DNA of 17,101 bases from Bacillota bacterium. GTDB lineage: Bacteria > Bacillota > Clostridia > Tissierellales > Peptoniphilaceae. Each line of letters begins with the position of its first letter. Position 1 is the first letter of the stretch. The position numbers and the translations under genes are program-made. Location of the stretch: positions 1 through 17,101 of the forward strand of contig JAEXBH010000173.1 of NCBI GenBank assembly GCA_023394215.1. The letters are read 5' to 3'. This document shows positions 8,097 to 17,101 of this stretch, piece by piece. Under the pieces are notes generated by a model. The model saw only the letters and a program-made list of their open reading frames with translations. It ran no database searches and was not told the origin of the DNA.

Positions 8097-10082
8097 ATGG
8101 ATAGGATAAGAGAACTTATTGATCAGATAAAAGAATTGAATTATCACTACTATACCTTGGATCAGCCCCTAATAAGTGACGGGGAATACGACCTTTTATA
8201 TGATGAGCTTCTTAGGCTTGAAAAAGAAACGGGTATAATTTATGATGATTCGCCTACGAATGTTGTAGGTGATAAGATTTTGGATAAGTTTGAAAAGCAT
8301 ACCCATCTTGGAAGACTTTATTCTTTGGGAAAAGCCCAATCCTATGGGGAAATTGAGGACTGGATATTTAGAGCTGAAAAGCTTAGACAGGTATATAATG
8401 ATGAAAATCCTCACAATATGCTTCCTGAGCTTGAGTATGTTATTGAGCTTAAGTTTGATGGACTTACTATAAATTTGACTTATGAAAATGGGAATTTGAC
8501 TTATGCGACTACCAGGGGGACCGGTCAGGTTGGCGAGGAAATATCAGCACAAGTTGCAACTATAAAGACCATACCTAAAAAAATTGCTTATAAAGGGCTT
8601 GTTGAGATTTCGGGAGAGGGAGTGATGCCCCTGTCACAGCTAAAAAAATATAATGAAGTAAATGATATAAAGCTTAAAAATGCAAGAAATGCAGCAGCCG
8701 GGGCCTTGAGAAATTTAGACGTTTCTGTTACGAGATCAAGGCACCTTGAAGCATATCTTTATAATATAGGTTATATGGAGCCGCAAATTTTGTCATCTCA
8801 AACGGAAATATTTGACTTTCTCAGGGAAAACAATTTTCAGCTTTATCCATTTATGAGAATAGCTAAAAGCTTTGGAGAAATTAAGGCTGCCATAGAGGAA
8901 ATTTCGGAATTTAGAAAGACTATTGATGTCCTTACCGACGGTGTCGTTATTAAGATAAATGATTTCAGAACCCGTGAAGTGCTTGGATTTACCAATAAGT
9001 TTCCAAGGTGGGCGCTTGCTTACAAGTTTGAAGCCGAACAGTTTACGACTGTTGTAAGAGAAGTTGTTTGGAATGTCGGCAGGACCGGCAAGGTAACGCC
9101 GGTGGCTATTTTAGATCCGGTTGACATAGACGGGGTCACCGTAACAAGGGCAACTTTAAATAATTATGACGATATAAAAAGAAAAAATGTAGCTATAGGT
9201 TCAAGGGTTATTATAAGGAGATCAAATGATGTAATTCCTGAGATACTTATGGCTGTTGATGATGAAAATCCCACTGAAAAAATAGAAAAGCCTGAAAAGT
9301 GTCCGGCTTGCGGTACTGAACTTTTTTATGATAAGGTTCATATATTTTGTCCAAATTCCATGGACTGCAAACCTCAAATGCAAGCAAGAATTGTGCATTA
9401 CTGTTCGAGAGAGGCTATGAATATTGAAGGAATCTCAGAGAAAACCGTTGAGAGATTTACCGAAGAGCTTGATATCACAAGGGTCGATCAACTTTATGAT
9501 TTAAGGAAGGAAAATCTTATAAACTTGGAAGGTTTTAAGGATAAAAAGGCTGACAAGCTGATAAGTGCAATAGAAAATTCTAAACATGCCAAGCTCGATG
9601 CTTTTATTTACGCCTTAGGTATACCAAATGTCGGAGTAAAGACGGCAGGGGACCTTGCTTTGCGTTTCAGGAGTCTTTCAGCCCTTAGAAGTGCCGGATA
9701 TGAGGATTTGATAGAAATCAGTGATATAGGAGATATTACAGCCAAAGCCATAGTGGAGTTTTTTGCGTCAAGTCATATTAAGCTTGCTCTTGAAAGGCTT
9801 ATAGCTAAAGGTATTGAACTTGAGGAGGCTGATGAAGAAATATCATCGGATTTAAAGGATTTAACAATAGTTGTTACAGGTACGTTTGAAGGTTATAATA
9901 GAAAAGAAATAGAAAAAGAGCTAAAATTAAGGGGTGCCAAGGTAGCTTCAGCGGTTTCAAAGAACACTGATATTTTGCTTGCAGGAGAAAATGCCGGTTC
10001 CAAGCTTGAAAAGGCCAAGGGATTCGGTACAAAAATTTACCAAGACCAAGAATTAAAAAGCTTTTTAGATAGTATTATTTAG
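8097..10082 (+). CDS. ligA: NAD-dependent DNA ligase LigA
   Basis: The 661-residue protein has the full LigA layout. Domain Ia (1-65) includes NYHYYTLDQPLISDGEYD. The adenylation domain carries the active Lys119 in ELKFDG. Then come an OB fold, a four-cysteine zinc finger (C402, C405, C418, C424), helix-hairpin-helix repeats, and a C-terminal BRCT domain from about 585. It seals nicks during replication and repair using NAD+. The motif RLYSLGKA is a slightly divergent form of the usual PMLSL segment. GGGGGA at 8088-8093 sets the start, nine bases after pcrA. The pcrA-ligA-gatCAB order is the one seen in Bacillus and relatives. Confidence 0.96.
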   Translation: MDRIRELIDQIKELNYHYYTLDQPLISDGEYDLLYDELLRLEKETGIIYDDSPTNVVGDKILDKFEKHTHLGRLYSLGKAQSYGEIEDWIFRAEKLRQVYNDENPHNMLPELEYVIELKFDGLTINLTYENGNLTYATTRGTGQVGEEISAQVATIKTIPKKIAYKGLVEISGEGVMPLSQLKKYNEVNDIKLKNARNAAAGALRNLDVSVTRSRHLEAYLYNIGYMEPQILSSQTEIFDFLRENNFQLYPFMRIAKSFGEIKAAIEEISEFRKTIDVLTDGVVIKINDFRTREVLGFTNKFPRWALAYKFEAEQFTTVVREVVWNVGRTGKVTPVAILDPVDIDGVTVTRATLNNYDDIKRKNVAIGSRVIIRRSNDVIPEILMAVDDENPTEKIEKPEKCPACGTELFYDKVHIFCPNSMDCKPQMQARIVHYCSREAMNIEGISEKTVERFTEELDITRVDQLYDLRKENLINLEGFKDKKADKLISAIENSKHAKLDAFIYALGIPNVGVKTAGDLALRFRSLSALRSAGYEDLIEISDIGDITAKAIVEFFASSHIKLALERLIAKGIELEEADEEISSDLKDLTIVVTGTFEGYNRKEIEKELKLRGAKVASAVSKNTDILLAGENAGSKLEKAKGFGTKIYQDQELKSFLDSII

Positions 10083-13976: not shown

Positions 13977-14876
13977 ATGGTTGAATATTATTCAATAGGA
14001 AAAATTTCAAAGGAATGCGATGTCACCATAAAAACCTTGCGATACTATGATAAAATAAAATTGTTGCAACCCGAATACAGGGATGAGAACAGTAATTATA
14101 GATATTATACAAAAAAGCAGATGGTTGATGTTTTAATTATAAGAAGGCTTAGGGCCTTGAACATATCTATAAAAAATATAAAGAGTATAATATCGAAACC
14201 GTCTATAGAAAACTACATAAATATTATAAAAAAGAAGTCGGATGAGTTATCGTCCGAGATAGATCATTTGCAGGCAAAAAAGGCAGCCTGTGATGTAATC
14301 CTTAATAGGATGATAAACGGTAAGGAAATAATGGAAGACGGAAATGACGGCATATCTTTCGGAGAATGCACAAAGAATGTAAGGATAGAGGAGATACCGG
14401 TATCAAGGATACTTTACTCAAGAAAGATTATGAAAAACTACAACAATGCCGCAGTATCGCTTGACAGATGGCTTGATATATATGAGCAATGCACAAACAA
14501 CGGGATATCTATGCAAAGTTCCATTATTACTACGTATTATGCGGAACCTCTGGCACAGTTTCTTTTGAGTGACTGCGATGTGGAATTCGGGGTAAGCATA
14601 AATATTGACACTGATTTGCAGAAATCAAATGCGAATACCAGAATTGCCGGAGGGCATAAGGCCTATACGGCGTATCATGTAGGAAGATACAGTGAAATAA
14701 TAAAGTCGCATGTGGCTTTAATTCAGTGGCTTCATAAGGAAAACTACGAAATATCGGGACCTATTTCCGAAGTTTTTGTAATATCACCTCTTGATATAGA
14801 AGATGAGGAAAAACATATAACCAAGATTATTATTCCTATAAAGGAAAGACGGATGGATACTTCTATTAAAAAATAA
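13977..14876 (+). CDS. MerR-family activator with GyrI-like effector domain
   Basis: The 299-residue protein starts with a MerR winged helix-turn-helix (about 4-72). SIGKISKECDVTIKTLRYYD is the recognition helix region and NYRYYTKKQ the wing. A helical dimerisation segment follows (about 80-110). The C-terminal half (about 130-299) has the strand-helix pattern of the GyrI/BmrR ligand-binding fold, including RIEEIP, TAYHVGRYSEI and a final ITKIIIPIKE strand. This family untwists promoters with 19-20 base spacers when ligand binds. Exactly such a promoter lies 331 bases downstream, before the CoA-transferase operon, so that operon is the likely target (inference). Relatives with this domain often sense drugs or other organic compounds. 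AGGAGG at 13967-13972 supports the ATG. It has its own promoter and terminator. Confidence 0.85.
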   Translation: MVEYYSIGKISKECDVTIKTLRYYDKIKLLQPEYRDENSNYRYYTKKQMVDVLIIRRLRALNISIKNIKSIISKPSIENYINIIKKKSDELSSEIDHLQAKKAACDVILNRMINGKEIMEDGNDGISFGECTKNVRIEEIPVSRILYSRKIMKNYNNAAVSLDRWLDIYEQCTNNGISMQSSIITTYYAEPLAQFLLSDCDVEFGVSINIDTDLQKSNANTRIAGGHKAYTAYHVGRYSEIIKSHVALIQWLHKENYEISGPISEVFVISPLDIEDEEKHITKIIIPIKERRMDTSIKK

Positions 14877-14894
14877 ATTAAGTTTTGCTTGATA

Positions 14895-14924
14895 AACAGG
14901 ATGTCGATTTGACATTCTGTTTTT
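14895..14924 (+). terminator. Intrinsic terminator after the MerR gene
   Basis: AACAGGATGTC (14895-14905) pairs with GACATTCTGTT (14911-14921), with one G-U pair and a five-base loop. A T-run extends to 14924. Confidence 0.85.
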
Positions 14925-14998: not shown

Positions 14999-15036
14999 AA
15001 ATAAGTCTGCTGTAAGGGTAGACTTATTTATTTTTT
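14999..15036 (+). terminator. Terminator-like hairpin containing motif copy 1
   Basis: AAATAAGTCT (14999-15008) pairs perfectly with AGACTTATTT (15020-15029) around an 11-base loop, GCTGTAAGGGT. It is followed by A and six T (15031-15036). It lies 75 bases beyond the MerR terminator, so it is either a second terminator or the end of an unannotated short transcript. Confidence 0.55.
15009..15025 (+). repeat. Direct repeat of 17 bases, copy 1
   Basis: GCTGTAAGGGTAGACTT is identical to 15143-15159. Here it forms the loop and 3' arm of the terminator-like hairpin. Confidence 0.75.
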
Positions 15037-15142
15037 ATTAAAAGCCTTTGAACTATAGAAAACAAGGGAAATATGACAACGTTTATCATATTTTGGAAAA
15101 AGTATTCCATTTTTTTAAATAATATTTTAAAATTCGACAAGT

Positions 15143-15159
15143 GCTGTAAGGGTAGACTT
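15143..15159 (+). repeat. Direct repeat of 17 bases, copy 2
   Basis: It is identical to copy 1, 134 bases downstream of it. The flanking AAGT (15139-15142) can still pair with ACTT, and CT with AG inside, so a weaker hairpin with a similar loop sequence remains. It ends about 48 bases before the -35 box of the downstream operon. Confidence 0.75.
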
Positions 15160-15206
15160 TTTAAAATAAAATTAAATTTTAACAATAATTATTTGATGAA
15201 ATCGTA

Positions 15207-15307: not shown

Positions 15308-16495
15308 TTGGTAAAAGAAAAGGCTTTAGCAGGTTTAAAAGTTATTGATTTAACTTCAGCTTTAAGCGGTCCTTTCTGTACAATGTTCTTTGCCGATTTC
15401 GGTGCAGAAGTAATCAAGATTGAACCGGTTGGTGGGGAACAATGTCGTACTTGGGGACCTATTGATAAAGAAAGTGGTGAAAGTGGATTTTATGCTTATG
15501 TAAACAGAAATAAAAAGGGTTGTACATTAAACTTGAAATCCGAAAAAGGCCGTCAAATGCTATATGAGTTGGTTAAGGATGCAGATTTCCTATGTGAAAA
15601 TTATAAGGGTGGAGTAACTAAGAAGTTGAAAATAGATTATGATACCTTGAAAGAAATCAATCCGAGACTTATATACGTTTCAGGATCAGGCTTTGGACAA
15701 ACAGGACCAATCAGCCATAGACCTTGTTATGACATAGTAGCACAATCTATGGGCGGAATGGTAAACTTGACAGGTTTTAAAGATTCTATCCCTGTAAAAG
15801 TAGGACCTTCAGTGGCAGACCACGTTTCAGGTATCTATCAAATGGTAGGAGCCCTAATAGCATTGCAATATCGTGAAAAGACAGGTAAGGGACAACACGT
15901 TGACGTAGCGATGTTGGATACAATCTTCAGCTTATTGGAAAATGCTATCCCTAACTATACGATGGAAAATATTATTCCTGAAAGAAATGGTAATATAGAT
16001 CCTTCGATTGCACCTTTTGATATTTATCCTTGCAAAGACGGATATGTTGCACTTGGTGTAGGTAACGACAGACTTTGGGCTAAATTCTGTAACTTGATGG
16101 GTAAACCTGAGTTGATAGAAGACCCGAGATTTGTTACCAACGAACTTAGATCTGAAAACTATGTTCCGGATTTACAAAATATAGTAAGAGAATTTGTAAA
16201 AGAACTTACTAAGAAGGAAATTGAGGATATGATGGACGAAGCAGGTATTCCATGCGGTCCTGTATTAAATGTTAAAGAAGCTATCGAACATCCTCAAATT
16301 AAGGCAAGAGAAATGATGGTTCATATAGAACATCCGACAGTTGGAGATATGTATTTCCAAGGTGTTGTGCCTAAGTTATCTGAAACACCGGGAGCTGTGG
16401 AAACTCCTCCGCCTCTATTGGGACAACATAACAGAGAAGTTTTCGGTTTGAGTGAAGAGGAAGCAAAAGCGTTAGAAGAAGAAGGAATAATTTAA
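15308..16495 (+). CDS. CaiB/BaiF family (class III) CoA-transferase
   Basis: The 395-residue protein has the family length. It opens with LAGLKVIDLTSALSGPFCTMFFADFGAEVIKIE, the nucleotide-binding start of class III CoA-transferases. RNKKG follows at about 67-71. CYDIVAQSMGG has the catalytic Asp at 142, which forms the acyl anhydride with the substrate. VDVAMLDTIFSLLE and a C-terminal PPPLLGQHNREVFG follow. These enzymes move CoA between carboxylic acids. The substrate is not fixed by sequence; the two ammonia-lyase-like genes downstream suggest a beta-amino acid (inference). The start is TTG at 15308. Arginine is coded 10 times AGA, 3 times CGT and never AGG, unlike upstream genes. It is the first gene of an operon behind a MerR-type promoter. 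Confidence 0.88.
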   Translation: MVKEKALAGLKVIDLTSALSGPFCTMFFADFGAEVIKIEPVGGEQCRTWGPIDKESGESGFYAYVNRNKKGCTLNLKSEKGRQMLYELVKDADFLCENYKGGVTKKLKIDYDTLKEINPRLIYVSGSGFGQTGPISHRPCYDIVAQSMGGMVNLTGFKDSIPVKVGPSVADHVSGIYQMVGALIALQYREKTGKGQHVDVAMLDTIFSLLENAIPNYTMENIIPERNGNIDPSIAPFDIYPCKDGYVALGVGNDRLWAKFCNLMGKPELIEDPRFVTNELRSENYVPDLQNIVREFVKELTKKEIEDMMDEAGIPCGPVLNVKEAIEHPQIKAREMMVHIEHPTVGDMYFQGVVPKLSETPGAVETPPPLLGQHNREVFGLSEEEAKALEEEGII

Positions 16496-16511
16496 TAAAA
16501 AGGAGTTAGAA

Positions 16512-16988
16512 ATGGCAAGAAAAGTATCTTATTTAAGTTATAACATGACTACAGCGGATGCATCAAACGTTGACGGAATAATACCTGTAGGTCGTCAATT
16601 TGACTTTATAGGCGACGTAGAAACAGAACAAATGATTCTTAATGACGGTGATGAATCTTTATGTTTGGGTTACCATGACGTAGATATTTATGAAGATGTT
16701 TATGTTGGTGACATGATGGAATATAAGGCTACTATGACTAAGGTTGGTAATACTTCAAGAGACTGCTTAATCGAAGTTTATAAATTGGCTACTCCTGCAT
16801 CAAGAGCAGGCAAGGCTGATGCTAAGGTCGGAGATATGGTATGGTTTGATGAACCTGTACTATGTACAAAGGGAAATGTACGTTTAGTTGTTAAAAAACA
16901 TCTTCAAAGAGGTGAACAACCTGACGGTATCGTAAATGACCCATGGAGGGCATTGGAAGATTTCCCTGAAGAAGACGTTGAATTTTAA
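16512..16988 (+). CDS. Hotdog-fold protein, beta-aminoacyl-CoA ammonia-lyase-like, divergent
   Basis: The 158-residue protein resembles 3-aminobutyryl-CoA ammonia lyase (Kal) and beta-alanyl-CoA ammonia lyase in its centre: DGDESLCLGYHDVDIYEDV at about 45-63, VGDMMEYKATMTKVGN at 65-80 and IEVYKLA at 87-93. These match the remembered family pattern of D-G-D, GY/AY-D, V-GD-xEY and KVGN. Such enzymes remove ammonia from beta-aminoacyl-CoA to give enoyl-CoA. The N-terminal segment, where canonical members have HYxGxLVxGAR, reads NVDGIIPVGR (19-28), so key residues are lost. It may be a non-catalytic or differently acting partner of the next gene. A 16-base gap with AAGGAG precedes the ATG. A thioesterase or MaoC-like role cannot be excluded. 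Confidence 0.65.
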   Translation: MARKVSYLSYNMTTADASNVDGIIPVGRQFDFIGDVETEQMILNDGDESLCLGYHDVDIYEDVYVGDMMEYKATMTKVGNTSRDCLIEVYKLATPASRAGKADAKVGDMVWFDEPVLCTKGNVRLVVKKHLQRGEQPDGIVNDPWRALEDFPEEDVEF

Positions 16989-17002
16989 TTGAGGAGGATG
17001 AG

Positions 17003-17101
17003 ATGGAAAATATTACTATGCGTTATAGAATGTCTGACAGAGACGTATTTTATGGTGGTGGAGTAGTAAACGGAGCAAGAGGCATCACCCTAATGGAAGA
17101 A
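17003..17101 (+). CDS. Hotdog-fold beta-aminoacyl-CoA ammonia-lyase-like, N-terminal 33 residues
   Basis: The frame opens at ATG 17003 behind AGGAGG (16992-16997), 14 bases after the previous gene, and runs off the window. Its first 33 residues contain MSDRDVFYGGGVVNGARG, which matches the HYxGxLVxGAR motif at the start of 3-aminobutyryl-CoA and beta-alanyl-CoA ammonia lyases, with Phe-Tyr in place of His-Tyr. It therefore looks closer to a catalytic subunit than the preceding paralogue. Only the N-terminus is visible, so the family call is provisional. Confidence 0.55.
   Translation, partial: MENITMRYRMSDRDVFYGGGVVNGARGITLMEE

Follow-up and report, generated by a model that had tools for sequence, protein, structure and literature searches.

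What is the function of the three genes which close a 17,101-nucleotide stretch of DNA (the window) from a Bacillota bacterium of the Peptoniphilaceae (GenBank assembly GCA_023394215.1, contig JAEXBH010000173.1)? The genes encode a class III CoA-transferase (CoA, coenzyme A), called CaiB here, and two small hotdog proteins, A and B. They lie on the same (+) strand, separated by gaps of 16 and 14 bases, and a purine-rich start site precedes each of them. An earlier note on this DNA had described a CaiB-type transferase with two tandem ammonia lyase-like proteins, and had suggested that in this module a free beta-amino acid is first joined to CoA and then deaminated. The gene assignments are confirmed by the family match of the transferase, by matches of both hotdog proteins to the ammonia lyase Acl and by a public record of the complete B protein, and the same set of CaiB, A and B is found repeatedly in Clostridia related to this organism. 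The proposed function is supported as well, as the relatives supply an acyl-CoA dehydrogenase, Etf and a transporter.

The comparisons described below make it likely that the operon, which lies behind a MerR-type regulator gene, has the following role. CaiB and A/B would activate a free beta-amino acid, probably beta-alanine or 3-aminoisobutyrate, and remove ammonia from it, and the dehydrogenase would then reduce the resulting enoyl-CoA. The new elements are the split lyase and the operon-level link to pyrimidine degradation; the logic of the pathway is already known.

Relationship of A and B to Acl

The A gene is 158 codons long, and its product has a single match at E ≤ 1 in the Protein Data Bank (PDB), Acl2 of Clostridium propionicum (4mtu). 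The B gene is cut by the end of the window after 33 codons. The N-terminus of the public protein P0090 (122 residues) is exactly these 33 residues, and P0090 shares its longest-contig entry (596,972 bases) with P0033, which is the A protein of the window. The second hotdog gene is therefore a whole gene and not a chance open reading frame. When a profile of B is compared to the PDB, Acl is found at 1.3e-13, and the next match is at 0.028.

Kal, the 3-aminobutyryl-CoA ammonia lyase of lysine fermentation, belongs to the same hotdog superfamily and presumably uses the same elimination chemistry, but A and B score far below the 160-bit cut-off of the NCBIfam Kal model NF052388 (68 bits for A, 21 for the B fragment and 57 for the B protein of L002, the next relative of the window after L001). 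The one-subunit Acl of L002 is likewise under this cut-off, at 143 bits. No Kce-like partner was recognized beside A/B, and the Kal group is separate in the hotdog tree; of the three rows labeled Kal in that tree, only L066 and L067 adjoin a gene which we take to be Kce-like. The lysine route was rejected on the model scores. The names '3-aminobutyryl-CoA ammonia-lyase' and 'acyl-CoA hydrolase', which public records give to A- and B-type proteins, are probably misleading.

A and B as probable subunits of one lyase

A scan of contigs from other genomes gave 38 loci, and family profiles were placed over 43 records, the window included (L043-L062 were left out). These records are not independent: several come from close relatives, L039-L041 were chosen because they hold both A and the pyrimidine gene PreA, and one genome supplied both L010 and L042. 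Motif and neighbor counts were taken from non-overlapping sets, as L043-L046 include stretches already present in other loci.

In the 43 records, B directly follows A in 46 of 50 A domains, and 12 A-B fusions are present. The two proteins also divide the Acl motifs, as defined here from the alignment, between them. GDxxTE is present in all 31 A-type proteins of the sample (P0028-P0054, P0056, P0058, P0060 and P0061; other A-type matches, odd lengths and fragments were left out) and in no B protein, and VNGAR is present in 105 of 116 B proteins (the newly numbered ones of 120 B-type proteins listed) and in no A protein. Neither A nor B holds both motif sets of Acl in a single chain. A fused A-B protein is predicted to fold as one double hotdog, with a predicted local distance difference test score of 91.7 and a predicted template modeling score of 0.90. 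In the hotdog tree, which is rooted for display only and in which the branch to B is long (1.41), the A and B lines co-diverge. A second, less derived lyase pair, X1/X2, is similarly divided: X1 groups with B, without being a single clade, and X2 groups with A.

Because B follows A so regularly, the two are fused in 12 cases, their motif halves are complementary and their lines co-diverge, the evidence at sequence level favors A and B as subunits of one enzyme, rather than the two lyases of the earlier note. The active site would then be a composite one at the A-B interface, and of the two sites of the hotdog dimer one may be complete and the other vestigial. The mycobacterial dehydratase HadAB is a heteromeric hotdog enzyme with two unequal subunits and one functional active site; its substrates and family are different, and the likeness is one of principle only. 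Together with the X1/X2 sister pair and the natural fusions, A/B appears to be a clear example of the change from a symmetric enzyme to an obligate heteromer. Neither a two-subunit ammonia lyase of this kind nor a uracil-to-propionate operon was met in the literature at the level of titles and the opening lines of abstracts, subscription papers being mostly beyond reach.

Several other arrangements of these genes were observed. In L010, L011, L013 and L026, the A/B pair is duplicated, with one pair on each side of CaiB. In L002 (Peptoniphilus stercorisuis), two tandem one-subunit Acl-type genes encoding identical proteins are situated between CaiB and A/B (8957-9864). The X1/X2 genes are found at L042:7737-9606, L043:12812-13691 and L068:2870-3775; their neighbors are carbamoylase and dihydropyrimidinase genes in the first two loci and an acyl-CoA dehydrogenase gene in the third. 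Perhaps X1/X2 serves the other pyrimidine-derived substrate.

The CoA-transferase

CaiB of the window, a protein of 395 codons, matches the whole PF02515 profile (residues 7-375 to positions 1-366 of 366, E 2.5e-132). It is 86% identical to its counterpart in L001, 80% to that in L002, 49-51% to the CaiB proteins that stand beside Acl in Anaerotignum and 28% to E. coli CaiB. Asp171 is aligned in all seven homologs compared, as well as with an Asp of the SUGCT chain, and is presumably the catalytic residue, as in formyl-CoA transferase. The protein is under the cut-off of every named class III equivalog of NCBIfam (e.g. succinate-glutarate, oxalate, mesaconate, carnitine), the best score being 311 bits against 750. 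The deep forks of the CaiB tree are not resolved, and E. coli CaiB, Frc and YfdE are on long branches; therefore, no claim is made on the ancestry of the transferase. In L030 (10459-12027) and at the same place in L031-L033, subunit B is fused to the N-terminus of the transferase.

Neighboring genes in related Clostridia

The genera represented among the 38 loci include Peptoniphilus, Peptostreptococcus, Terrisporobacter, Clostridium, Eubacterium, Pseudoramibacter, Lachnoanaerobaculum and Anaerotignum. Among the 43 records with A, 40 have B, 40 CaiB, 38 an acyl-CoA dehydrogenase, 33 both EtfA and EtfB, 32 a MerR-family regulator, 13 the transporter BrnQ and 13 the membrane protein family DUF1097. 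The acyl-CoA dehydrogenase and Etf proteins were compared to the NCBIfam models of acryloyl-CoA reductase (NF042970-NF042972; cut-offs 600 for AcrA, 475 for AcrB and 640 for AcrC). L010 exceeds all three, with 680, 525 and 675 bits, respectively. AcrC is over its cut-off also in L004, L016 and L030, and in one of the two dehydrogenases of L029. The neighboring genes fit the proposed module; genes pointing to another pathway, which the earlier note had named as fatal to its proposal, were not seen.

The link to pyrimidine degradation

Reductive pyrimidine catabolism (PreTA, dihydropyrimidinase and ureidopropionase) would supply both beta-alanine and 3-aminoisobutyrate. Genes of this pathway (dihydropyrimidinase, the M20 carbamoylase, PreA or PreT) are present within the fetched stretch in 15 of the 38 loci. 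Of the 38 whole genomes behind these loci, 28 have PreA and 33 have dihydropyrimidinase over the cut-off, compared to 2 of 14 control genomes for each. Among 291 genomes of one class, A is present in 7, PreA over cut-off in 16 and both in 5 (Fisher p 5e-6). In all five, A and PreA are on the same contig and at most 12 kb apart, and three of the five (G159, G304 and G319) are outside the 38.

One contiguous cluster, L043, has on one strand CaiB, B, A, BrnQ, EtfA, EtfB, AcrC, PreA, PreT, DUF1097, dihydropyrimidinase and carbamoylase. Contiguous clusters are also found in L040 and in L041, where the fetched stretch contains no Etf.

In 11 of 30 genomes searched, A/B is the only lyase of the superfamily better than 1e-25, and 9 of these 11 have PreA over cut-off. 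The occurrence of PreA with no other such lyase in 9 of 30 genomes therefore points to pyrimidine-derived substrates, and this pattern is the best evidence on the choice of substrate besides the neighboring genes.

Where DUF1097 occurs in the 43 records it recurs with pyrimidine genes, e.g. at L043:9436-9918, and one might guess that it is tied to pyrimidine uptake or handling. This recurrence fits a report from Anaerostipes hadrus, where preTA has a gene of the DUF1097 family as its neighbor (PMC11036815). Further, A- or B-type proteins and dihydropyrimidinases are listed with equal longest-contig values (25431, 15625, 24260, 21720, 21627, 23563 and 37933), which suggests more contigs holding both.

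The counterpart in Anaerotignum propionicum

The genome G327, taken as A. propionicum, encodes an Acl identical to the solved C. propionicum Acl in 125 of 125 residues of 4mtu, in the order Acl, CaiB, MerR-GyrI (L061). In all eight genomes searched from the genus of G026, a one-subunit Acl adjoins a CaiB-family gene; among the 12 loci fetched there, four further Acl copies have no such neighbor. The pairing of a class III transferase with the lyase, which the earlier note took to be new, is thus not new, because Acl already adjoins CaiB in the genome taken as A. propionicum. That beta-alanine fermentation relies on a class I transferase, as the earlier note supposed, also agrees poorly with one study, in which Pct had only marginal activity on beta-alanine and Cp_act was active on it (PMC13067684). 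The CaiB-family gene beside Acl is probably that of Act/Cp_act.

A second locus of the same genome (L060) has the order AcrC-AcrB-AcrA-CaiB-A-B-nitroreductase, with MerR on the other strand, followed by dihydropyrimidinase-NCS1 permease-carbamoylase-PreT-PreA. The only AcrC of G327 over the cut-off is located here. The family model thus suggests that the acryloyl-CoA reductase for which A. propionicum is known is situated in a pyrimidine cluster. The C. propionicum genome has been described as one replicon of 3.1 Mb with three identical acrABC copies (PMC4832176). These copies are not reproduced in G327, where the two other AcrC matches have 526 and 446 bits.

The proposed pathway

By combining these observations, it is possible to outline a route. 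A free beta-alanine or 3-aminoisobutyrate would receive CoA via the CaiB transferase, the donor being likely the pathway's own product, propionyl-CoA or isobutyryl-CoA. A/B would then remove ammonia, giving acryloyl-CoA or methacrylyl-CoA, and the acyl-CoA dehydrogenase with Etf, encoded next door in the relatives, would reduce this enoyl-CoA to propionyl- or isobutyryl-CoA. The product would re-enter the transferase, and the acid, propionate or isobutyrate, would be released. Activation would thus proceed without a cost in adenosine triphosphate (ATP), and the cycle may act as an electron sink, according to beta-alanine + 2[H] → propionate + NH3; where PreTA is present, uracil would take up two further [H]. 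In the other Clostridia, the beta-amino acid would be formed locally by the breakdown of uracil or thymine. The organism of the window probably takes it up by a BrnQ-type transporter instead.

A wider proposal can be put forward tentatively, with somewhat less than even confidence. A/B would be an obligate two-subunit lyase with a composite site, which arose from a one-subunit Acl-like ancestor by duplication and complementary loss. In Clostridia, it would complete a reductive, ATP-free fermentation in which uracil yields propionate and thymine yields isobutyrate, the nucleobases being the electron acceptors. The acryloyl-CoA reductase of C. propionicum would be part of that pyrimidine system, being used also by lactate and alanine fermentation.

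If the route outlined above is right, pyrimidine-derived beta-amino acids could serve as electron acceptors in many anaerobes. The pathway would be a little-recognized source of propionate and isobutyrate and a fate for beta-alanine and 3-aminoisobutyrate. One may speculate that the same fate awaits alpha-fluoro-beta-alanine, a product of 5-fluorouracil.

Alternative explanations

The following observations weigh against pyrimidine-derived substrates and the outlined route. No pyrimidine gene is present in the fetched stretch of 23 of the 38 loci, several of these stretches being short. Four of the 38 locus genomes (G001, G003, G012 and G036) have neither PreA nor dihydropyrimidinase over cut-off, and G304, which has PreA and A/B, has no M20 carbamoylase at 1e-100. 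Close to the window, L001 has the order CaiB-A-B-dehydrogenase-BrnQ on a 4.3 kb contig with no hydrolase, and neither PreA nor dihydropyrimidinase exceeds its cut-off in its draft genome. The operon of L002 includes DUF1097, dihydropyrimidinase and carbamoylase. Its genome, however, has no PreA over cut-off, and its dehydrogenase scores 463 against the AcrC cut-off of 640, with no adjoining Etf. No dihydropyrimidinase is found on the 596,972-base contig of the window's species among the best 120 of 7981 matches. It is because of these absences in L001, L002 and the listed contig that uptake is favored for the lineage of the window. Branched-chain amino acids are the known cargo of BrnQ-type carriers, so that a different substrate is conceivable. 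The operon might act on a beta-amino acid like beta-leucine, 3-aminobutyrate or beta-valine, its proximity to pyrimidine genes being secondary. The BrnQ genes, with that of L001 directly behind the dehydrogenase, the low score of the L002 dehydrogenase and the four genomes with neither pyrimidine marker would agree with this. Nevertheless, several loci encode dehydrogenase and Etf proteins that pass the cut-offs for acryloyl-CoA reductase, A co-occurs and is linked with PreA, and neither an aminomutase nor a Kce-like gene was recognized among the shared families of the loci, where no dedicated model search was made. Such a substrate is therefore considered unlikely.

It is about equally improbable that A and B are separate one-subunit lyases with different substrates, e.g. 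beta-alanyl-CoA and 3-aminoisobutyryl-CoA. Each subunit has a full hotdog fold, uracil and thymine yield two different beta-amino acids, and L029 has two dehydrogenases, one over and one under the AcrC cut-off. Yet each subunit is without motifs that Acl holds in one chain, the fusions and the nearly constant order of A and B speak for a joint function, and X1 and X2, likewise a pair, fall with B and A, respectively, in the tree. A reading of A and B as acyl-CoA thioesterases or as hydratases, a placement which the earlier note had named as refuting its proposal, is very improbable. Fold searches with the A-B chain do list many thioesterases, the double-hotdog acyl-CoA hydrolase 2gvh at the top; for B alone, 2gvh is tied with 4mtu in VIA-align, and Foldseek ranks 4mtu first. 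Some public records also name B-type proteins acyl-CoA hydrolase. The fold alone thus fails to separate the two possibilities, but the sequence matches of both A and B point to Acl, and in the fold search A is 37% identical to 4mtu compared to 10-20% for the other listed chains. The preferred explanation remains a predicted two-subunit ammonia lyase, which likely acts on the CoA ester of beta-alanine or 3-aminoisobutyrate.

Comparison with known systems

The beta-alanine fermentation of A. propionicum (Act, Acl1/Acl2, AcrCAB) has the same predicted chemistry of CoA transfer, deamination and NADH-dependent reduction. Its Acl carries both motif sets in a single subunit, whereas the window has the split A/B; the transferases are related at the level of identity given above. 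The layout is similar to that of E. coli CaiTABCDE/FixAB, which comprises a CaiB transferase, a CaiA reductase of the acyl-CoA dehydrogenase type, the FixAB Etf and the CaiT transporter. Both follow the logic that a CoA ester first undergoes elimination and is then reduced, but CaiD eliminates water, not ammonia, and the relation is one of analogy, not membership. The extension of the pyrimidine pathway by Yin et al. in 2019, which releases the nitrogen of beta-alanine, is said to run via a transaminase; the operon described here is predicted to use CoA-dependent elimination and reduction instead.

Degradation of beta-valine in Pseudomonas sp. SBV1 (BvaA, BvaB1 and BvaB2) is also a CoA-dependent deamination of a free beta-amino acid. 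According to PMC4619459, it uses an ATP-dependent ligase, and its lyases, each active alone, are related to enoyl-CoA hydratases. This system was rejected as a relative, as the SBV1 lyases described there have another fold.

Other features of the window

The MerR gene belongs with CaiB, A and B, although it lies outside the part of the window considered by the earlier note; the family is present near CaiB/A/B in 32 of the 43 records, as counted above.

Table 1. Positions of the operon genes and nearby elements in the window, and of the AcrC matches in G327
Feature	Position	Strand	Evidence
MerR-family regulator with GyrI-like small-molecule domain, predicted operon regulator	13977..14876	+	PF13411 8e-15, PF06445 1.5e-10
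Intergenic direct repeat, candidate operator or leader element	15008..15176 (copies 15008-15042, 15142-15176)	.	35 bases, 80% identical, 134 apart
Class III (CaiB/Frc) CoA-transferase, predicted beta-aminoacyl-CoA transferase	15308..16495	+	PF02515 442 bits; TTG start; conserved Asp171
Hotdog subunit A of predicted two-subunit beta-aminoacyl-CoA ammonia lyase	16512..16988	+	4mtu 1.4e-17; keeps GDVETE...DGDESLCLGY and QRGEQ
Hotdog subunit B, first 33 codons, truncated by window end	17003..17101	+	ATG at 17003; keeps YGGGVVNGAR; whole = P0090, 122 residues
AcrC matches in G327	C1:2255225, C1:2914930, C1:503855		One over cut-off, two weaker

The direct repeat is positioned between the MerR gene and CaiB. 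None of the other loci compared has the core of this repeat, GTAAGGGTAGAC, close to the operon, and no operator common to the loci emerged; the one match of GTAAGGGTAGAC on the reverse strand falls within an Acl-type coding region of L071. Two terminator-like hairpins are located at 14894-14922 and 14999-15029, the second of which overlaps the first copy of the repeat.

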